Source: Parvularia atlantis
Lineage: Eukaryota > Opisthokonta > Rotosphaerida
NCBI GenBank assembly: GCA_943704415.1
Contig: CALSCO010001367.1
Location: forward strand, 1 to 29,007
Length of the DNA: 29,007 nt
Reading direction: 5' to 3'
The position numbers and the translations under genes are program-made. Each line of letters starts with the position of its first letter. The stretch's first letter is position 1. This document shows positions 1 through 25,570 of this stretch, in pieces. The notes beneath the pieces were generated by a model. That model was not told the DNA's origin. It made no database searches and was given only the letters and a program-made list of their open reading frames with translations.

Positions 1-516
1 GTAGAGCTGCGATGTGCGCGATGAGCATCATGATCGATCGGCCAATCGCAACGCGGGCGAACCGTGATAAACAGGATGAAGAAATCGGGCACGCGCTGTG
101 CGCTCGCCCGCGGCTGCGCCAGCTGGTACACGAGCGTCCCGCCCATGATCAGCATCATCGCGGTGTAGGCGGCCGTGACGGTCGTCTGCGCGGCGTGCGC
201 GGCGTGCGCGGCGTTTGTTGACGGCGGACACGCGAACTTGAATGATAGAGCGTAACAACGCACCGGCGCCTTGTCGACGCGGCGCACGTAGCGCGACACG
301 CCCAGCTCGAGCAGCGCGAGCACGGTCAGCGCGAGGCCGAGCGCGTTGATCGTGTCCTTGGCCGGCTGCAGCAGCGAGCACGGCGCGGGGTCGAGGAACA
401 GCCACCAGTCGTCGTCTGCCGTTCGCGTCAGGTGGCGAAGCAGCAGCGGCCGCAGGCGCACCGCGGAAGCCCGGCGCGCACGGCTCGCCGCCACCGCTGT
501 CGCTGCTGCTGGTCAT
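1..516 (-). CDS. Hypothetical small membrane protein, two predicted helices, 3' end outside window
   Basis: I do not recognise this protein. It starts at the ATG ending at 516. Exons are 462-516, 264-415 and 185 downwards; the introns (416-461 and 186-263) have GTGCGC/GTGCGT donors and CAG acceptors and keep the frame. The protein opens with a short polar stretch, then DDDWWLFLDPAPCSLLQPAK, then a hydrophobic helix (NALGLALTVLALLELG), a basic VSRYVRR turn, and a second helix (YTAMMLIMGGTLVYQL) followed by FFILFI. Two or three membrane passes with a short basic loop are likely. A further intron may begin near 54 and end just before the window edge, so the C-terminus is missing. It is divergent from OSGEP across about 330 bp. 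Codon use has G/C at nearly every third position, which supports real coding. The function is unknown. Confidence 0.6.
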
Positions 517-862
517 TTTGCGGCGCGCTGTGCGGGGAGAGAACGGCGTGGTCAGCAGGCAGCGCGCGTCCGGGGCCCAAACAAAACGGGCGGAATGCGA
601 AACAAAGGCGTGACACGCATGAAACCGTGGGACATTTTTTTTTTCGCGCGGTGCAGCCACAGCACCAGCAGCAGCCACAGCAGCAGTGCACGCCACCGCA
701 CACGCGGCACACGGTAGCAGCATGCGTGGCGCGCAGAAAGAAAAAAAAAAGAAAAAGCGCGATAACGGAGGGGGAAAACGCCACGGAATGCGATGGCGTG
801 CGCAGCCACACCTGGCGACGCCGCTCTGCACCGCGCTTCCGTGCATGCCGGCGGTTCGGTGG
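517..862. promoter_or_regulatory. Divergent intergenic region between the membrane-protein gene and OSGEP
   Basis: About 345 bp separate the two divergent start codons. The stretch has lower GC than its flanks, a run of Ts near 635-644, CAG-rich trinucleotides near 660-690 and a purine-rich A/G tract at about 735-757. I see no convincing TATA box, and the reading frames crossing it do not look like protein. It presumably carries both promoters and 5' UTRs. An alternative in-frame ATG for OSGEP lies at 845. Confidence 0.45.
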
Positions 863-2277
<1,415 letters not shown>

Positions 2278-2369
2278 GTTAATCGTGTGCCCCTTGACGA
2301 GTTGCGCGTGATGATCACACGTGCCTCATGCAACGTGGCGGATGGAGTGGGTGGGCTGCCACTTCACCA

Positions 2370-4321
2370 ATGCCGGCGGCCCGTGGAATGCTGCCCGACG
2401 AGCTGCTGCTTCACGCGCTCGCCTTCCTCGACGCGCGCGACCTCGCGGCGTGCGCGCGCGTGAGCCGGCGGTGGCGTGCGCTCGCCGATGACCCGCAGGT
2501 GCGCGTGGCGGTGGCCGATGGCGCGCGCTGACCGCGAACGGCGCGATCGATCAGCTGTGGCGAGCGCTGTTCCTGCGCCGGTTCAAGCTGCAGGTCGACG
2601 GGCGCGGTCCGCTGCTGTCGCCGCGCGCGCTGCGCCAGCCGCTCGTGCCGGCGGCTGCGCCATCGGCCTTCGCGAGCAGCTGGCGCACCGGCAGCCGCGC
2701 GCGCGCCCTCGGCAACAGCGGGCACGACGTGCACACGCAGCGCGAGGCGTACCGGCACTGGAAGGACATGTACGTGACGCGCCACAACTGGGAGGCCGGC
2801 AACGTCTCCGTCGCGGCCTACGCGCCCCCTGCAGGCCCTGCACGTGCGTCAATCATCGCGCCCCTGCCCCTGCGCATGCGCCGCCGATCATCATCGGACG
2901 ACTGATCAGCGCGCAACAGCAGCCCGGCCAGACGCGCCCGTGCGCCATCTGCAGTTCACGCGCAGCCGCATCTTCTCGGCCGACGGCGGGCTGCTCGTGC
3001 GCGTCTGGGCTGTCGGCGCCGCGTCCAGCACCGCGCACGTCGTCACGTTCACCTGCCCGGCAAACATCTGCGCCCTGCGCCTCGCGGCCTGGCCGTGGTC
3101 GTGGCCCGCGCCGCCGTCCAAGCGCGCCGTCGACGCCGACGAGCCGCTGCTGCTGCTGTGCGGCCTGCGCGACGGCTCGCTGGTGCGCGCGCTCGTTGAA
3201 CGTGCTGCGGCTTCTTTGACGTGCGCGAGACACAGATGCTATGGAACGTGAGCACGCTGCTGCCGCTCAGCCTCGTCGGCGCCGACGTGGCCCAGGGCGA
3301 GACGCGCCCGCCCGTGCTGTACGTGACCATGACCGACCGCTACATCGCCACGGTCGACGCCGAGCACCGCCTCGACATCTGGGTGACGGACGTGCGCGAC
3401 GGCGACGCGACGACGGCGACGCTGCGGCGCGTGCACTCGCTGCACAGGTGCGCATCCTGTCGTGCTCAGACAGGCCACGCTGACGTGTGCGGTGCGCGCA
3501 GCGTCGTGTGCTCGGACCCTGTCGCGATCGAGCTCGGCCACCGCGGCTACCTCAAGGCCGAGGCCGCCGCGCCGCAGACGCGCCGCTCGCGCCTGCGCCT
3601 CACGATCTCGTTCGCGAGCAACAGCTGGATGAACCTGCGCTCGCAGCATATCTGCTCGCAGCGCGTCGAGTTCACCGAGGACTGGATCCTGTACAACACG
3701 CGGCAGGAGCCGCCGATGTACGCCAAGGACGGCGGCATGCCGGCGCTGTCCGTGCTCGGTGCGACGCGCCGCTGTGCTCTCACATGCTGCGGCTCACTGA
3801 CCCATGCGCAGGGCCGCACGCGACCGTCACGTGCCTGCGCTTCGAGGCCGCGTCGCAGCTGCTCGTGTCGGGCCACGGCGACAACACGATCCACGTGTGG
3901 TCGGCCACGGGCGCGCACGGGCGCTTCCGCCACCTGCGCGCGCTGTACGGCCACACGGGTGCGGTGACGTGCCTTGAGTTTGACGGCTTCAAGATCATCA
4001 GCGGCTCGCGCGACCGCACGATCAAGCTCTGGTCGCTCGAGACGGGTGCGCCGCGTGTGCGTGGCACGGCCTAGGCTGAAGCGCTGCGCAAGGTGAGTGT
4101 CAGCACACGTTTGCCGACCACGACAGCGCCGTCACCGCGCTCGTGTTTGACGAGCAGCGCATCTGTTCGGCCGACGAGGTGCGCCACTCGCTTGCTGCCG
4201 GCTGTATCGTGCGTGTGACCGTGCTGCTGCGCAGGGCGGGCACATCAAGCTGTGGTCGTTCCGCTCGTCCCACGCCGAGCCCGACCAACCGGCCGAGAAG
4301 CGCGTGCGTGTACATGTGTAA
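2370..4321 (+). CDS. F-box/WD40-repeat protein (putative SCF substrate receptor)
   Basis: An N-terminal F-box (MLPDELLLHALAFLDARDLA, then CARVSRRWRALADD and LWRALFLRRF) is followed by a linker and a WD40 propeller, so it should bridge Skp1 to a ubiquitination substrate. Exons: 2370-2498, 2555-2843, 2920-3182, 3236-3447, 3502-3758, 3812-4056, 4104-4178, 4235-4321 (about 518 aa). The best WD repeats are near the C-terminus: LLVSGHGDNTIHVWSATG, GHTGAVTCLEFDGFKIISG with SRDRTIKLWSLETG, and ICSADEGGHIKLWSF. Earlier blades are degenerate. The start could instead be the ATG at 2388. The splice at 4057-4103 (47 bp) was chosen because it is the only frame-keeping option I found, so residues around it are less certain. 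The orthologue is not identifiable. Its stop lies 11 bp from the convergent ATAD5 stop. Confidence 0.85.
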
Positions 4322-4332
4322 ACAACAAAATA

Positions 4333-7300
4333 TCAGGTTGTGGTCTCGCTTAGAACGCTGCAGGTGTCGATGGCCGGTGCGGGCACGCTGGAGGCGTCCG
4401 CGGTGAGCATGGCGTCGGCCGGTGCGGCGTCGGCCGGTGCGGCGTCGGCCGGTGCGGCGTCGACTGCCATGCCGATCGCACGTACGCCGATCGCAGGCAG
4501 GGCATCGACGGCCACGCCGACTGCAGGCAAGGCATCGACGGCCACGCCGACTGCAGGCAAGGCATCGACGGCCACGCCGATTGCAGGCACGGCCGCAGCA
4601 GCAACGAGGACGGTCCACTGCTGACAAAGCCGCGGATCCCAGACGGGCGCAGCCCGCGCAGCAGCACGCCCGGCAGAGATGCGACGGCTGACGCGCTGGT
4701 CGTCGCTCGCGCCCGGTGGCGGTGCCGTGGCCAGCTGGCGTATCACGGGCACCACGTCCTGCATCAGCTCGAGCAGGTGCAGCCCAGACCGTGTGCGTGC
4801 AGTGAGACGTCCAGCACTGTGCAGCCGGTCAGCTCTCGTTGGCTGTAGCGCGGCGCAGCTCACCATGCGTCCACCATCGCGTCCCGATGCGCTCGTGCGG
4901 CGGCGGCGATCGGCAGCGGCATTGGCTGGTCGCTCGAACGCACAGTGCCCGCCAGGCAGCGCAGCGCGAGCAGTTCGATCGCCGCCTGCAGCTCCACCGC
5001 GCGCGCCCAGTCGACGTCGCTGCCGTGCCGCTGCGAAAAGCGCGAGCGCGTGGGCAAGACGCGGCGCCCAGTGAGCGAGTCGGGCTGCTTGTTGGCGGCC
5101 TCGGGCTCGGTCGCCTGCCAGCACGCCAACCGTCAGCGAGAGCGCCGCAGTGCGCTCGGTACGCACCCGGATCACCGCCTCGGGCCGCACGCAGCAGTGA
5201 GCGTCCACGTGTGCGAGCACGTCCAGCGCGGCTGCGAGCGGCGCAACGTTCCCGCTGCCGTCGAACTGGAGCACGCTGCTGAGATCGTCCAGCCCGTCCT
5301 GTGTCGCTCGGGTGAGCACACGCCAACAGCGCGGGGCGCACACGCACCATCAGCGCGAGGCGCATGAGCTCTTCGTCTTCATCATCGCAATGGGCCAGTA
5401 TTTCATGAGCCGTCGACGTCTGCCCGAGGCAGGCGAGCGGTAGCTGGGCGAAAAAATGAGCTGCGCAACCGCGCAAGCACGCGGCATCGACGCACCGCGC
5501 GGCCTGTACCCGGCAGCAGCAGCGTCTGCAGGCTCAGCAGCGAGCGGCGGATGTCGAGCGCGCAGGCGAGGGCCAGGCGCTCGTGCCACGCGCGGTCGAG
5601 CTGGCAGCCTGCAACATGCGCACGGGTGTCAGTGCGCAGCCGCGGCACACGCTTGTCGCACCCTCGGCCTGAGCAACACGGTCGAGCAGCGCGGCGAGCT
5701 CGGCGACGGACGGACGAGCAAAGTGGAGCACGTCGACCTCGTTGCTCAGCTGCCGCTCGGCGTCGCCCGCATCGTTGCACGTGAGCACGATCGGCCGCTG
5801 CGAGCGCGCCGTCAGCGCCTCAGCCTTGCGTGCACGACACAAACACGCACCTTGGTGGTCGCGATGAGCGACGAGACGGTCGCCCAGAAGCCCTTGTCCT
5901 CATCAAACAGCACGTCCACTTCCTCGATCAGGATGAGCGACAGCTTGCTCAGCGTGCCCGACGGCTGCTGCTGCGCCGGCGCGGCGGGGGGCGGCACCGT
6001 GACACGCTTGGCTTTGCGCTTGCGCGCGTTGCGCTTGGCCGCCTCGCGCTCGCGCTCCTCCTGCTCCTGCTGTTGCGCAGCTGCTGGCGACGATCGCAGG
6101 GCAGTGAGCCGAGCACGCGCGGCGTCAAGCGCGCCGCACCCTGCGCCGCCATCCACGGTTGCACGACCAAGTGCGACTGTGTCGACTCGCCAAACAGCTG
6201 CTGCAGGTCCTTTGCACGATGCACATCGGTAAAGCCGCCGCGCGAGCCTTGCGGAACGCGACGCACACCTTGCCCGTGCGCCGCTGCGTGCAGTTGCTCT
6301 CGAGGATCTCAATGTCGAGCTCGGCACACGCCGCATTGAGCGCCTGCCGCAGTCGCGACGGTCAGCAACGACAGCGGCGAGGCAGCCACCGCACACGCAC
6401 GGCTGTCTTGCCGCTCCCGCTCGGGCCGCACAGGACGATCACGGTCGGCACGCTGTCCTCGTCCTCGCTGTCCTGTTGGCTGTCGTCGTCGCCGTTCGCG
6501 TGCTGCTCACCGTTCGCGTGCCGCTCGCCATTCGCGTGCAACTCGCCGTTTTGCGCGCCCGCGTCCTCGTACTCGTCGTCCTGGCTCGACTGCAGCCGGC
6601 GCCGCGCAGACGCACGCCTCGCAAAGTCGTCGTCTGCCGCGTGAACCGTCAGCCGTTGCCTTACCGGCACAGCAGCACACGCGCACCGGGCGACGTCTCG
6701 GCTGCCGCAACTTGCGACAACGCGCGTCTTGGGCGCTTGCTGCGCGGCGGCGAGGACGACGGCACAGCGTCGAGGACGACCATGGGCGCTGCTGGTGTGA
6801 CCTCGGGCGCGCGCTGTGGCTGCCAGCGGCGCAGCCACGCCAAGAGCTGCGCGACCTTTGCGCTGTTGCCGCAGACCTCGGCAGCGCGGCGCGGACGGTA
6901 CTTGTCAGTCCACAGCTCGGTGCCGCCCGTGGATGCCGCCGCGGCAGGAGCAAGAGCAGGAGCAGATGCAGCGCGCCAGCGTGCCTGCGTGCGCAGGTCC
7001 CACGCGACGACCCCGGCACGCGCGGGTAACATGCGCAGGGCAGCACGCATCGGGCCGTGCACTGCGCTCAGCTCGGGCCGCGGCGTGTGCACTGTCAGCG
7101 CGTCCGGCAGCGGCGCGTCCTCGGCGGTGTAGATTCGGCGTGCTGCGGGCTGAGCTGGCGGCGTGCTCGGCGGCTGCGACTGGTTGGCCGTGTCTTGCGA
7201 CGTACGGCTGCTGCGGGCGCATGTGAGCAGCGAGCCAATGCGTGCGCACGCAAGCGGGAGCGGCGCACCTGTCGCCGTCCGACGTCGCCGCGCGCTTGGG

Positions 7301-7978
7301 CTGCAGGAACGGGTTGGCCGAGCGGCCCTTCCAGAAGGCGGCGTCCCACTGCTTGGTCTGCTCGATGCTCTGCTTGAGCCGGTGCGTTGTCTGCTCGGCG
7401 CGCTTGGCCTTGCGCTGGCCCGTGGACAGGAACATGTCTGGGATGGACTGCAGCGGCACGGGCGGCTGGCTGCTGTTGCCGTCGTCGAGTGGCACGGGCG
7501 ACTCGCTGCTGCTCGCAATCTGCGGCTGCTCATCGCCCGCGTCCACGCCGTCCACGTCGACCTCCTCCTCGCCCTCGGCCTCGTCGCTCGTTGCGGCCGG
7601 CGCGGCCACCGATGGCGCGGCCTTGACGCGCGGCGCAAAGAACGGATGCACCTTGGCCGGCTCGCTCTGCATCGCCTGCTGCTGCTGCGCCGCCGCAAAG
7701 AACGGATGAATCTTGGCCGGCGGCGCGGCCGGCTTGGCGCGCTTGGCCTTGGCGCTGCGTGTGCGCGCCGTCGATCAGTTCGCGCCATCGACGTGCGGAC
7801 AAACGCATCGGCACCGCCGCGGCTCGTCCCGGTCCTCGGCGACGTCGGACAGCGCGACGACGGCGACCGGGCGACGCACACGGCCCGATCGGCGCGGCGC
7901 GGCCCCGTCGCCCGCCCCGTCGGCCCCGGCGGCCCCGGCGGCGTCGCTGGGCGGCGCCGAGGCGGGTGGCGCGCTCAT
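4333..7978 (-). CDS. ATAD5: ATAD5/Elg1-like AAA+ PCNA-unloading clamp loader
   Basis: This is the large subunit of the alternative RFC complex that unloads PCNA after replication. Exons: 7815-7978, 7269-7754, 6687-7210, 6401-6633, 6269-6343, 6140-6209, 5851-6083, 5662-5797, 5510-5608, 5348-5460, 5167-5298, 4864-5114, 4333-4816. All phases close, giving 999 aa. The disordered N-terminus carries two HPFF motifs (residues 71-74 and 91-94) of the ATAD5/Elg1 type. LWTDKYRPRRAAEVCGN opens the clamp-loader module. The Walker A is GPSGSGKTA (461-469), then ALNAACAELDIEILESN, FGESTQSHLV, the Walker B LILIEEVDVLFDED (567-), RPIVLTCND, and the helical DIRRSLLSLQTLLLP. An acidic HANGE/HANGQ tandem lies before the P-loop. 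The C-terminal tail is made of short tandem repeats. The exon 9 donor is GTACAG, unusual here, and was chosen for frame. RFC1 is less likely because no BRCT domain is seen. Confidence 0.9.
4411..4455. repeat. Three perfect 15-bp tandem copies in the ATAD5 C-terminal exon
   Basis: The unit GGCGTCGGCCGGTGC is repeated exactly three times at 4411-4425, 4426-4440 and 4441-4455. Read on the coding (minus) strand it encodes a pentapeptide repeat of the DAAPA type. Copies are identical at the DNA level, so the expansion is recent or still active. Confidence 0.9.
4501..4590. repeat. Three 30-bp tandem copies in the ATAD5 C-terminal exon
   Basis: Blocks 4501-4530 and 4531-4560 are identical and 4561-4590 differs at two positions. 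The unit is a multiple of three and encodes a decapeptide repeat PAVGVAVDAL on the minus strand, close to the C-terminus. A more diverged copy precedes it near 4471-4500. The number of copies probably varies between strains. Confidence 0.9.
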
Positions 7979-8287
7979 TTGGCGCGCTTCGAGAAGCTTC
8001 TGTTGGCCACGCGCGATGCGCAACAAACCGTGGAGACCTTTTCGCGCTTTATGAAGCAAAGTACCCGCTTCTCTCCATTTTCTCTTTTCCGTCTGCGCAC
8101 TCTGCTCCAGTGAGCGATTCCGCTTTGTTTGCTTTTGCACAGAATGTTTGCAATTCGGCTTTTACAGGTGCGTATAAAAGTGCGCGCCTTGTGTCTTTCC
8201 AACCATGATGATGAACCATTATGCTATTCTGATCTGCGAACATGTCTGCATCAACGACCACACCAGGCAAGGAGATCCGCAAGCACT

Positions 8288-8451
8288 ATGCCCTGGGTGA
8301 AGGTCGTGATCGTCGACGAGTCGTACACCAGCAAAACGTGCGGCTGGTGCGGCGTCCTCCACACCACTTTCACTGCAAGTCGTGCGGCACTGCAGTGGGA
8401 CGCGACATCAACGGCGCACGGAACGTATATCTCAAGAACCGAAACCCCTGA
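8288..8451 (+). mobile_element. Broken C-terminal remnant of a Fanzor/TnpB-type RNA-guided nuclease
   Basis: The signature of the OrfB/TnpB/Fanzor C-terminus is plain. VKVVIVDES-YTSKTCGWCG lies at about 8300-8353 and gives the first zinc-ribbon cysteine pair. FHCKSCG at 8368-8388 gives the second pair. RDINGARN at 8401-8424 is the RuvC-III motif with its catalytic aspartate, followed by VYLKNRNP and a stop ending at 8451. The glutamate in VDES before YTSKTC sits where Fanzors and some TnpBs are reported to carry their alternative RuvC-II glutamate, which favours Fanzor over ordinary bacterial TnpB. The copy is broken: it has at least one break inside the preserved part and no recognisable N-terminus, RuvC-I or recombinase. 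Codon use is GC-rich like the host, suggesting long residence or a GC-rich source. No capsid or other viral gene adjoins it. Confidence 0.85.
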
Positions 8452-8566
8452 GGCTGCCTCGGGCCCGGAGAAAGGTGCCACCAAGCACGACTCGGCTCCA
8501 CAGTGACACAAGGAGTTCAGTTTAGGTCTAAAAAGGCACTTATGTAAGAGGCGCTTTGGGCGCAGG

Positions 8567-8689
8567 TGGATCGACAACATCGTCCTCCGCCACCGCGAGC
8601 GCTTCGCGTACGTGCTCGACCACCTGCAGAAGCCGTTCGCGCGCGAACTCCTCACGAGCAACTGCATAGCACTCACAGTAGTACCGTGA
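8567..8689 (+). pseudogene. Orphan short coding stretch of unknown origin
   Basis: The frame starting WIDNIVLRHRERFAYVLDHL and continuing QKPFARELLTSN to a stop at 8687-8689 has nearly all third positions G or C from 8570 to about 8660, as in the real exons around it. It is preceded by GGGCGCAG, which resembles the acceptor end of introns in this window. No donor exon or start fits upstream. It may be a scrap of the same element as the Fanzor remnant, a decayed host exon, or chance. I do not recognise a family. Confidence 0.35.
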
Positions 8690-8719
8690 AGGCTGTGCAT
8701 TACACTGGGCCATCTACAT

Positions 8720-9919
8720 CTACACGCCCAGCTCCACTGCCCGCAGCCGGTCGTCGACAAAGTGCGCGAGCTTGTCCATGGCCCACTCGGCGACCTCGGC
8801 GAAGCTTTCGTTCAGCAGGATCGTCTTGGACGAGTTGCGCACGGTGTCCAGCAGCAGGCGCCGCTCCTCCATCACGAGCCGCACAAAGACCGCCTTCGTC
8901 TCAGCATCCAGCTGCGGCAGCGCGTCCTGAATGCGCTTGACAAGCTCGCCCATGCGCCGGCGCAGGTACAGGTCGAGCTGGTGCACGAGATTGCCCTCGA
9001 CGCGCGCCCGGTCAAGCTCCTGGCGTCGACGCGGCGTCGATGAACGCTGGACCAGGCGGGGTCACGCGCGCACCTGCTCCTGCACGAGCTGCACGCGCTG
9101 CGCCTGCGCCTCGCGCCACTCGCTCATTCGCAGCACGTCCGCCATCGCCGCCTCGAGCACGTCGGCCACGAAGCGCCCGACGAGCGGTGACGACGCGTCC
9201 AGCGGCGGGTCCGTGCCCGTCGACGGCAGCTGCACGGTCACGAGCGACGTCTCCCACGCGCGCTGCGTGCTCGGCGCCTCGAAACGCTCGCGCATCGTCC
9301 GCCACACGTCCGCCGGCACAATGTGCTCGGGGAAGCGCGCGGCGTTGCGAGCGGCGCTCACGTCCGGGTCGGCGTCGACGTGCACAAACACGACCGGCAC
9401 GTCGACTGCGCAGCTCAGGGGGGTCAGCATCGCCGCGGTACAAAGCGGCTGCGCACTCTTGCGGCTTGCGTGGAACACCTCGTGGCGCATGCCCGCGTAG
9501 TACATGTTGTCGTCCACAAGCACAAGCACGCCCTGCGCCGCCGCCACGCGCGCGCGCGTCTCGGCCGGCGGCAGCTGGAGGGCGGCAAAGTGCACGTCGA
9601 GCGCATCGGCGCGCGCCGCTGCGTCCCCATCGCCGTTCCCGCCGCCGCCTCCGCCGCCACCCAGCTGCAGCCGTTTGCACGCGCTCAGCAGCGCCACGGT
9701 CCGGTTGAGCAGCTGCCTGCGCTGTGCGCGCCACGGGCCCTCGCCGGCGCTCGGGATGGGCGGCAGGACGCTGTCGTACTCGACGTGGACGACGGCGGGC
9801 CGCGGCGCGGCATCGGGCGGCGGCGCGAGGTGCTGCCAGCGGTCGAGTGCGTGGCACAGCGTCGTCTTGCCTGCGCCGGGCAGGCCGCAGAGCACGACGA
9901 GGACGACGCGCGGCTGCAT
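8720..9919 (-). CDS. PSTK: L-seryl-tRNA(Sec) kinase (PSTK)
   Basis: PSTK phosphorylates serine charged on tRNA(Sec), making the substrate that SepSecS turns into selenocysteinyl-tRNA. Two exons, 9074-9919 and 8720-9019, with a 54-bp intron, give 381 aa. The P-loop GLPGAGKTT lies at residues 12-20 after a hydrophobic strand. Further marks are VVHVEYDSVLPP, the lid-like VLVDDNMYYAGMRHEVFHAS, VVFVHVDADPDVSAARNAAR, and RERFEAP followed by WETSLVTVQL. The last 100 residues are helical (DLYLRRRMGELVKR, FVRLVMEERRLLLDTV) and correspond in position, not obviously in sequence, to the helical C-terminal region of animal PSTK. KTI12 at 24405-25493 is a relative of the same P-loop class but carries different landmarks. 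The ATG at 9919 is preferred; an in-frame ATG at 9982 would add 21 residues. Confidence 0.88.
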
Positions 9920-10050
9920 CGGTAACTGAACGCGGCTCAGCACAGATGTCAACGGCGCGGTGTGCGCTAGTGTTTTGCACATCGCGCCTGGCTGCGTCGC
10001 GCGGGTTGCGATGGCCGCGCACTGACCACGCGGCGCTCGACAGGCGCCAG
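9920..10050. promoter_or_regulatory. Shared divergent promoter of PSTK and DHX15
   Basis: Only 131 bp separate the two start codons, so both transcripts must start within this stretch. No TATA box is evident. A short upstream open frame (ATG GCC GCG CAC TGA, near 10010) precedes the DHX15 start. Confidence 0.5.
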
Positions 10051-13069
<3,019 letters not shown>

Positions 13070-22781: not shown

Positions 22782-24374
22782 TCACAGGTCGTGCCGGAGC
22801 AGGCTGCCGTCCTTGACGCGGTGCACGACGTGCGGCGTGATCTGCTGCGCGCGCAGCCACTCAAAGTTGAACTGCATGTCGAGCGGCGGCTCCGGGTAGA
22901 TGTAGGACGAGTCGAGCACGCGCGTGATGTCCATGTGGCGCAGCAGGAACGCGTTGAGCTGGCTCTCGTCGTGGAACGAGGCGGTGACGCCTGCGCACGG
23001 CAGCGCGTGAGGCTGTGGCGCGGTGCGAGGAGCGGTGGGCGCACCCTTGTTGGTGTCGGCCTCGGTCGCGCGGTGGATGCTCTCGCAGGCGTAGAGGAAG
23101 TAGGGCCCCGTGCCGCCGAAGAGCGCGCCCTGGAAGTAGAAGGTGTTGCCGTGGTCGAACGTGGGCGGGAGCTTGCCGAGGGCGATGTCGATGTGGGCGG
23201 CGCTGCGGTCGTTGCGGTCGTAGGGGTACTGGCAGAACGTCCACTGGCCCTTCTTGTCGAAGCCGTGGGCGTTGGTGGACGGGGCGTCACCGTAGCGTCC
23301 GCAGAAGCCCTTGTAGTACCTGATTACGGTGGGCGGTGCGGAGGGCGGGGGGGATGCGCGACGCGTGCGTGTCGCGCGTGAGTGTGCGTGAATGCGAGCG
23401 GCGTGTAAGCGCATGAAACCAGGCACGATGCGAACACGAGGCACGAGGCAACGAGGCAACGAGGCACGAGGCGCGAGGCACCAGGCAACCAGGCACGAGG
23501 CACGAGGCACGAGGCACGAGGCAAAGAGCCAACGAGGCACGATGCGAACACGTGGCACGAGGCAACGAGGCACGACGCGAACACGTGGCACAAGGCAACG
23601 AGGCACAAGGCAAAGAGGCAACCCACGTGGCACAAGGCACAAGGCACCCACCAAGCAAGCAAGCACGACTCCACCAGCCAACAACAGCACGCACCGAGGG
23701 TAGTAGGGATGCTCGACGCCGACGAGGAGGCCGTAGACGTCGGCGAGGGAGACGTTGGCGACGAAGCGCGTGTCGGCGTCGAGAAAGAGGACAAAGTCGA
23801 GCGGGGCGATGTCGTCGGCGAGGTGGGCGAGGATGTCGGCGCACTTGTTGAGGGTGCTGTGGGGCCACTCGCGGAAGGGCACGCGGGCGGCGCGGATGCG
23901 CACGTCGGGGCGGGCGGGCGGGCGCAGCTGCGTGTCGTCCAGGTCGTCGACGCGCGACGTGAGCAGCAGCAGCGCGAGGTCGCATGCCGCGCCGCAGAAG
24001 TGCGCGGCCGCGCTGTGCAGCAGCTCGAGGCCCATCGGCCGGTACTTGCCGGCCGCCACCGTCACGACGCCCACGCGCCACCGCGTCCCGCCCCCGGCCG
24101 GCGCCGGCAGCGCCACCGCGCCCGTCCCGTTGCCGTGCAGCGCCGCCGTCGCCGATGCGCTGCGCGGCGCGCCGGGCGGGTCGGGCGGCGGCCGCGTGCG
24201 CCCGTCCACTGGCCGTGCCACGTCGTGCAGCTGCTGCTCGGCGTCGGCATCGGCATCGGCGAGCCGCAACGGGCCCGCGCCGCCCGGCGGCAGCAGCACG
24301 ACGACCAGCAGCAGCAGCGCCGTCGCCAGCAGCAGCAGCAGCGCGCCCGTGCCGCAGAATCGTGCGAGGCGCAT
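22782..24374 (-). CDS. GT6-family glycosyltransferase (ABO / alpha-1,3-Gal(NAc) transferase relative)
   Basis: It is a predicted Golgi type II enzyme. Exons 23695-24374, 23045-23319 and 22782-22990 give 387 aa. A short Arg-containing N-terminus is followed by a Leu/Val signal anchor (residues 11-28) and a Pro-rich stem. The catalytic domain opens RVGVVTVAAGKYRPMGLELL. The metal/nucleotide site is FLDADTRF (DAD 199-201). Downstream lie YFQGALFGGTGPYF, CESIHRATEADTNKG, SFHDESQLNAFLLRH (E327 at the GT6 catalytic-glutamate position) and VLDSSYIYPEP, which line up with ABO and GGTA1. At the positions that decide Gal or GalNAc in ABO (266/268) it has Q and A, so the donor cannot be called. Both introns are multiples of three and stop-free, so the 375-bp repeat-filled one (23320-23694) could be retained as coding. 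Confidence 0.8.
   Translation of the reverse strand: MRLARFCGTGALLLLLATALLLLVVVLLPPGGAGPLRLADADADAEQQLHDVARPVDGRTRPPPDPPGAPRSASATAALHGNGTGAVALPAPAGGGTRWRVGVVTVAAGKYRPMGLELLHSAAAHFCGAACDLALLLLTSRVDDLDDTQLRPPARPDVRIRAARVPFREWPHSTLNKCADILAHLADDIAPLDFVLFLDADTRFVANVSLADVYGLLVGVEHPYYPRCVLLLAGGVVLACLVGALCLVPRGLPLCLVPRCLVPRVRVVPRCLVPRVRIVPRWLFASCLVPRASCLVAWCLAPRASLPRCLVPRVRIVPGFMRLHAARIHAHSRATRTRRASPPPSAPPTVIRYYKGFCGRYGDAPSTNAHGFDKKGQWTFCQYPYDRNDRSAAHIDIALGKLPPTFDHGNTFYFQGALFGGTGPYFLYACESIHRATEADTNKGAPTAPRTAPQPHALPCAGVTASFHDESQLNAFLLRHMDITRVLDSSYIYPEPPLDMQFNFEWLRAQQITPHVVHRVKDGSLLRHDL
23419..23655. repeat. Minisatellite filling the long intron of the GT6 gene
   Basis: The array repeats GGCACGAGGCAAC-type units, with a larger period marked by GGCACGATGCGAACACG. 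On the transcript strand it reads CTCGTGCC repeats. It shares the AGGCACGAGGCA core with the minisatellite in AARS intron 1, about 3 kb away in a gene on the same strand. If translated it gives CLVPR-type repeats with no stop. Confidence 0.88.
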
Positions 24375-24404: not shown

Positions 24405-24749
24405 TCAACCCGCGCTCACTCGCTGCACATAGTCCAAAAACGCGTCCGCCACCGCCACCGCCGTCCCCAGCCGCGTCAGCCGGTTGAGCGCGAGAAACTG
24501 CCGCCGGTGCCGGTGCAGCTCGGCCCACGACAGCGGCCGCGCCGTCTGCCGCGCCGTCGTCCGCTCAGCCCGCCCGCACGGCCAGCAGCACACGGCCAGC
24601 AGCGCACCTCGAACGAGCGCGTCGTGCCCGGCACCGTCGTCGCGCCCGTGCGCTGCGCCTCGACGATCGCGCTCACGACCTGCTGCGTCGTCTGGTCCAA
24701 CAGGAAGACGTAGTTGGGCTCGCTCACGGGTTGCTGCGGCCGCCGCCGT

Positions 24750-24790
<41 letters not shown>

Positions 24791-25493
24791 AGGTGCACCG
24801 CCGGCAGGGGAGGGGGCGCACCGTGCGCGTCGAGAGGTGCGGCGTCGGCGCGGCCCCGCCAAATAGCGCCGCGTCCAGCGCGTCCAGCGGCAGCGCGTCG
24901 CCCGTCGCGACGACAAACAGCGGCCGGTCCCAGCGCGCCATCGAGTTGGGCGCCTCGTAGCGCTGCTCGAGCTCGCGCAGGCTGCACACGTCGTGCGATC
25001 AGCAGCGGACGAGGCAGCGGCAGCAGCGGCCGAGGCAGCGCACAGCGTCTCGCCGTAGCCGTCCGTGCTGCGCGCCGCGTCCCAGCGCGCCGCCTCGTCC
25101 GCGCCCGCCGCGACCTCGAGCACGGCGTGAGGTGTGGCACAGGCGCGGGCGATGCACGAGAGCTGGTAGCGCACGCCCTTGATGTCGTTGAGCGCGTCGG
25201 CAATGACGAGCACGTCGGGCGCGAGCAGGCTGTGCGTGGCGATGCGCATCAGCCCCGCCACGGCAGCGAGCAGCAGGCGGCGCGCAGCACCGCTCCACGG
25301 CCGACAGCAGCGTCGCCCGCGCGCGCTTTTCGGCCGCGACGTCGCCGTGCACCGCGCGTCTCCCGGCCGCGTCGACGCCGTCGTCGGCGATCCGCGCTGC
25401 CGGCCGCCCGCGCGCCGCGAGGGCCGCAGCGACCTCGGCGGCGCGCGTCGTCTTGCCGCGGGACGGCAGGCCGCACACGACGAGCAGTGGCAT
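24405..25493 (-). CDS. KTI12: KTI12, Elongator-associated P-loop ATPase
   Basis: Kti12 binds Elongator and is needed for wobble-uridine modification (mcm5/mcm5s2) of tRNA. Exons 25291-25493, 25044-25229, 24822-24981, 24608-24733 and 24405-24545 give 271 aa. The P-loop is MPLLVVCGLPSRGKTT (K14). The family marks are VLVIADALNDIKGVRYQLSC, LRELEQRYEAPNSMARWDRP, LPLDALDAALFGG, APTPHLSTRT, SEPNYVFLLDQTTQQVV, VPGTTRSFE and PLSWAELHRHRRQFL. The start was set at the Met directly before the P-loop strand, as in yeast and human; a Met seven residues upstream (25514) is possible. Intron 3 contains 13 CTG triplets running into its CTGAC branch-like motif. The gene is divergent from SFT2 across 77 bp, and its stop is 30 bp from the GT6 start. 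Confidence 0.92.
24750..24788 (+). repeat. (CAG)13, read as CTG repeats in KTI12 intron 3
   Basis: Thirteen perfect triplets lie inside the intron 24734-24821. In the KTI12 pre-mRNA they are CUG repeats that merge directly with the CTGAC branch-like motif about 12 nt before the acceptor. Confidence 0.95.
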
Positions 25494-25570
25494 ATCCGCG
25501 CGAGTGCTCAGCACCTACATCGCAGTAGCACACGACGCACAGCGGGACGCACGCAGCCGCACCAGGCGCG
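25494..25570. promoter_or_regulatory. 77-bp divergent promoter of KTI12 and SFT2
   Basis: The start codons of two divergent housekeeping genes are only 77 bp apart, so the region must hold both core promoters and both 5' UTRs. No TATA element is visible; the strand carries CAGCACCTACATCGCAGTAG and CACACGACGCACAGCG strings of unknown role. Confidence 0.55.

Follow-up and report, generated by a model that had tools for sequence, protein, structure and literature searches.

Fanzor proteins are, when whole, RNA-guided DNA nucleases (PMC10432273). Fanzor2 families have been described in eukaryotes by Bao and Jurka in 2013, two of them in Acanthamoeba castellanii, and in the account given there some of the Fanzor2/IS607-like elements encode a TnpA-like serine recombinase and the elements have neither TIRs nor TSDs (PMC3627910). 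The same source defines the C-terminal motif of the TnpB/Fanzor superfamily as [TS][TS]xx-C4 zinc finger-x(5,50)-RD. Two fingerprints of Fanzor proteins were given by Yoon et al. in 2023, namely DPG in RuvC-I and a glutamate placed six residues ahead of the zinc finger; this alternative glutamate (Ealt) is stated there to be common to Fanzor1 and Fanzor2 and also to mark the DphiG clade of TnpB proteins (PMC10711439).

In the window analysed here (the whole stretch of DNA, 29,007 nucleotides), positions 8288-8451 of the plus strand encode the C-terminal end of a TnpB/Fanzor nuclease, spread over two successive frames (Table 1). The first piece (8288-8359) reads MPWVKVVIVDESYTSKTCGWCGVL and the second, which lies in another frame and ends at the stop codon TGA (8449-8451), reads HHFHCKSCGTAVGRDINGARNVYLKNRNP (8362-8448). 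Together the two pieces show the superfamily motif with TSKT, four cysteines and RD, and the loop between the second and the third cysteine is shortened. The zinc-ribbon and RDINGARN motifs quoted in the initial annotation are all present, but they are divided between the two frames. PF07282 (Cas12f1-like TNB) matches the frame of the first piece (8288-8452) with 28 bits (gathering score 26.3, E 2.5e-6). Linking both pieces by an X at the frame change gave 57.2 bits (E 1.8e-15), and this match is nearly full, with a compact, TnpB-like zinc ribbon. The joined pieces also matched the NCBIfam models guided_TnpB (E 4.9e-11) and IS607_TnpB (E 6.6e-7), in each case with a score under the full-length cut-off. 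In PDB, the top chains for the joined pieces bore the name transposase or OrfB_Zn_ribbon (lowest E 7e-7), the mimivirus TnpB-like protein L79 was matched with E 2.1e-5, and von Willebrand factor dropped back to E 0.0049. Single pieces were poor guides in such searches: the first piece alone gave von Willebrand factor as top match (E 0.00097) and Cas12f1 with E 0.052, and the second piece alone gave a transposase (E 0.17) with p53 next. The patterns YTS[KRQ]xCxxCG and CxxCGx4RDxNGARN, which were picked post hoc, once the sequence had been seen, did not occur when the window was simulated 300 times with a first-order Markov model. The remnant is a homologue of TnpB/Fanzor nucleases, and the PF07282 match over both pieces bears out the proposal that a remnant of this type is located here.

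Table 1. Features of the remnant and its surroundings, with positions in the window.
Feature	Positions	Strand	Description
First surviving piece	8288-8359	+	Ealt glutamate, TSK motif, zinc-ribbon cysteines 1 and 2; model positions 458-481
Shortened zinc-ribbon loop, Cys2-Cys3	8351-8373	+	23 nt, compared with 39-45 nt in Ealt relatives; site of deletion and frameshift
Second surviving piece	8362-8451	+	Zinc-ribbon cysteines 3 and 4 in the shifted frame, RuvC-III RDINGARN, stop TGA 8449-8451
Near-palindrome CTCGGGCCCGGAG	8458-8470	+	Named in the initial annotation; nothing supports a function
PSTK (L-seryl-tRNA(Sec) kinase)-like ORF	9062-9982	-	TIGR03575 E 1.8e-11, 43.9 bits, curated cut-off 382

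Two models were run against all stop-to-stop frames with a minimum length of 15 aa on both strands of the whole window: an Ealt model with 528 positions, built from 38 full-length proteins with the DPG and Ealt pattern, and a canonical model built from 20 TnpB sequences. With the Ealt model only the two pieces matched well (E 1.4e-8 for the first and 1.7e-6 for the second, next frame E 2.7), the second piece covering model positions 487-509. The canonical model recovered the same two pieces (E 5.1e-6 and 9.3e-7, next frame 0.77). The rest of the nuclease, beyond positions 458-509, was detected with neither model on either strand of the window. About nine tenths of the protein are gone, including the first catalytic aspartate and the N-terminal part.

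The surviving part is itself damaged. The spacing between the second and third cysteine is 13-15 codons in the Ealt relatives (25 of 44 domains parsed) and 14-18 codons in the relatives without Ealt (22 of 24 parsed). Relative to the Ealt domains, the zinc ribbon is about 16-22 nt too short, and the frame changes because of this loss. A one-base sequencing error is ruled out as the cause since 16-22 nt are missing, an intron between the pieces would, on inspection, find no room in the 23-nt gap, and an assembly error could still be the source of the frame change. The remnant is a truncated pseudogene with a frameshift; the copy had been called broken on first inspection, and it is, as the match to the 528-position model is confined to positions 458-509. 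With its zinc ribbon no longer intact and both the N-terminal part and the first catalytic aspartate lost, this copy very probably cannot work, and judged from its sequence it most likely has no present activity. An open frame of 125 aa (8129-8506) does run through the remnant, and a domesticated short host gene could be imagined that uses this ORF, or another short product, to place half a zinc ribbon in a new role. The ORF keeps two of the four cysteines, however, and departs from the family frame at the deletion, and its only Pfam matches up to an E value of 10 are PF07282 and a weak match to DUF7336 (E 0.26). We consider such a domestication highly improbable.

The locus is eukaryotic, as the initial annotation had stated. 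The PSTK-like ORF next to the remnant also matches PSTK chains in PDB (E 0.0018 and 0.0033) and PF08433 (KTI12, E 2.8e-14), and beyond it lies a DHX15/Prp43 gene (E 2.2e-11) with a GT-AG intron of 67 nt at 10205-10271, recognised by inspection. A bacterial contamination or a chimeric contig, for which no supporting point was found, is scarcely credible next to these two genes on the same contig; no bacterial gene was recognised among the nearby ORFs scanned, and the GC3 of the remnant is 0.83, compared with 0.896 for PSTK. This codon use had been taken as host-like and as a sign of old residence. It is compatible with old residence, but the argument for age is weak because the remnant comprises only 53 codons, which is too little for dating.

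The other side of the remnant is occupied by minus-strand coding sequence. Of the two flanking genes originally named, ATAD5 and PSTK, the latter was recovered as a PSTK-like ORF, whereas the ATAD5 label is unconfirmed and has only weak AAA matches behind it. These came from a minus-strand ORF (6362-6838) that contains a Walker-A peptide at 6427 and matched AAA_33 (E 0.026) and AAA_22 (E 0.042), both below the cut-off. It is one of 17 minus-strand ORFs of 120 aa or more in positions 1-7881, and no AAA match was obtained with the other 16, searched with thresholds of 0.01 (three ORFs), 0.01 (two), 0.5 (ten) and 1 (one), and a PDB search with 4333-5343 (minus strand) gave no match.

Several other properties of the window were observed. 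The GC content, 71-82% at 7501-8000, drops sharply to 47-53% at 8001-8300, compared with 69% for the window, and this stretch may be promoter sequence or an old insert. A KTI12 gene is present on the minus strand at 24405-25514, where three overlapping ORFs match PF08433 (E 6.3e-12, 2.8e-10 and 1.9e-13); PSTK and its relative KTI12 are therefore both located in the window, about 15 kb apart. A tandem array of the CACGAGG type, with about 30 copies of 7 nt, extends from 23435 to 23647.

Around the remnant, the search for inverted matches in 8000-8740 revealed no element ends, and none of eight nearby ORFs contains a recombinase or other transposon domain. The best 19-nt inverted match in this region (8177-8195/8505-8523) agrees in 15 of 19 positions and was equalled in 8 of 60 shuffles; as a pair of terminal inverted repeats it is compatible with chance. 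The near-palindrome behind the stop codon had been put forward as an RNA hairpin, with a guide RNA encoded past the 3´ end. The sequence is there, but the 3´-end folds (8381-8520, 8440-8540 and 8452-8482) are no more stable than those of shuffled sequences (z 0.62, 0.03 and 1.27), and Rfam gave no match at gathering score within the window, so this proposal found no support. Intact relatives may nevertheless encode a guide RNA.

In VDE-SYTSKT-C, the E is located six residues ahead of the first zinc cysteine, and the remnant thus carries Ealt. The site of DPG falls within the lost part. The initial annotation had read the glutamate in VDES as pointing to Fanzor, and the alternative position is indeed occupied; since Ealt is also found in the DphiG TnpBs and the DPG site is lost, Fanzor is likely but not proven.

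The relatives used for comparison came from viral contigs (7 found with a pattern, and 45 loci), from GTDB genomes (the best 80 of 376), from 30 PF07282 loci of 7 genomes and from 8 annotated phage or plasmid records. The total of 170 loci yielded 68 distinct usable domains, 44 with Ealt and 24 without. Three domains were separated from the 44, leaving 41: L003 and L058 combine Ealt with DLG where DPG is expected, and L011 is an archaeal TnpB from Sulfolobus that contains VDESYTSKTC letter for letter as in the remnant. Among the 41 Ealt domains, 29 have a full-length ORF with DPG and Ealt at the source locus, and the CxxCG ribbon is present in 28 and absent from 13. In some bacterial Ealt relatives (L064, L065, L066, L068, L083 and others) E and RD are kept and the zinc cysteines are replaced (CSWSG...DG).

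Domain HMMs scored the remnant with 74.0 bits for the 28 zinc-bearing Ealt domains, 60.9 bits for the 24 non-Ealt domains and 53.5 bits for L003, L011 and L058. In the leave-one-out test all 28 Ealt and all 24 non-Ealt domains fell on their own side, and one of the three separated domains (L011) sided with the Ealt profile. Random profiles made of three sequences gave the remnant more than 53.5 bits in 38 of 40 cases with Ealt triples and in 2 of 40 with non-Ealt triples. In matches to single domains (n=68) the best 14 were all Ealt and the 15th was canonical. The remnant has a margin of +13.1 bits, whereas all 28 Ealt domains reach +27.1 or more, and such a small margin is expected of decay but also of a clade that was not sampled. 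The full-length models were divided: for the second piece the canonical model scored slightly higher (23.4 versus 21.9 bits for Ealt), for the first piece it scored lower (21.0 versus 28.8 bits).

A decayed prokaryotic TnpB that came from a bacterium or an archaeon, either canonical or of the Ealt type with DphiG, and that was no strict Fanzor has several points in its favour. The Sulfolobus protein is identical in VDESYTSKTC, two of the separated domains join Ealt to DLG, and the top plasmid match among the 20 listed of 1856 records, scoring 49 bits, comes from Gloeobacter and is a canonical TnpB that has Pro in place of the Ealt glutamate. The domain scores favour the Ealt set, however, and the ending DxNGA[RK][NG] of the remnant is shared by 25 of the 41 Ealt domains and by none of the 24 non-Ealt domains or of L003, L011 and L058. 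We regard a prokaryotic TnpB as unlikely. The top phage matches, among the 20 listed of 151 records, were both Ealt (Microcoleus phage, 47 bits; Nodularia phage, 46 bits), and no close relative of the pieces was confirmed in the viral contigs (8 and 9 stretches), where a degenerate pattern led to 7 contigs. In the Nodularia phage KU230356 (L010, 2492-2743) we observed a frame of 84 aa with a TnpB-type Ealt zinc ribbon that is cut off from any upstream part in the same frame and is possibly a frameshifted or decayed copy.

Fanzor1 proteins are marked by a TDG motif, REC2 helices and eukaryotic DNA-transposon ends, none of which was detected here. A remnant of a Fanzor1-type element would suit the eukaryotic setting, and Ealt, being common to Fanzor1 and Fanzor2 according to PMC10711439, would suit it as well. 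We judge it very unlikely, given the compact TnpB-like zinc ribbon and the near-full match to PF07282, which is a weak argument as the comparison covered Ealt and canonical TnpB domains. Within this comparison a Fanzor2-type origin of the remnant is likely, but not proven.

Taken together, it is highly probable that we are dealing with a dead, 5´-truncated fragment of the TnpB/Fanzor family, most likely Fanzor2-type, that entered on a mobile element and decayed between two host genes. A Fanzor2-type gene of the alternative-glutamate clade would have been brought into the eukaryotic genome by such an element, presumably an IS607-like one that possibly arrived via bacteria or giant viruses. The ancestor would have been active as an RNA-guided nuclease, and the later decay would have taken place in the space between the two host genes. 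Homologous to these nucleases, truncated, frameshifted and equipped with the alternative glutamate, the remnant is an ordinary dead transposon fragment and a degenerate member of an already known family. It is possible, although we suggest this only tentatively, that other parts of the genome of the host, a GC-rich eukaryote, contain intact Fanzor2 elements, the remnant being one dead copy of them, and that the host would be a possibly undescribed eukaryotic carrier of RNA-guided nucleases. The remnant suggests that a Fanzor2-type element was once present in the genome of this host, which adds one data point on the spread of these elements among eukaryotes. It is unlikely to have a function of its own but can serve to probe the same genome for intact copies.

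Compared with the described systems, the remnant resembles the pro-Fanzor TnpBs, which according to PMC10711439 are mostly cyanobacterial, in Ealt, in YTSKTC and often in the ending NGARN or NGARG; most of those compared are long open frames and come from bacterial genomes, IMG/VR or phage contigs. With the canonical TnpBs of IS200/IS605 or IS607 it has the zinc ribbon and the RuvC-III aspartate in common. These proteins differ from it at the site of the glutamate, where 22 of 24 have Pro, Phe or Trp and the other two Ala and Lys, and DxNGA, present in the remnant, is found in only 1 of the 24. Mimivirus L79 (PDB 9b0l), which we take to be a Fanzor2, has both DPG and Ealt in the alignment. From Fanzor2 in IS607-like elements the remnant differs in its length of about 52 of 528 model positions, its frameshift, the loss of DPG and the lack of a visible TnpA-like recombinase or element ends. 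It shares with them the order [TS][TS]xx-C4 zinc finger-RD, Ealt and the location in the genome of a eukaryote or of a eukaryotic virus.
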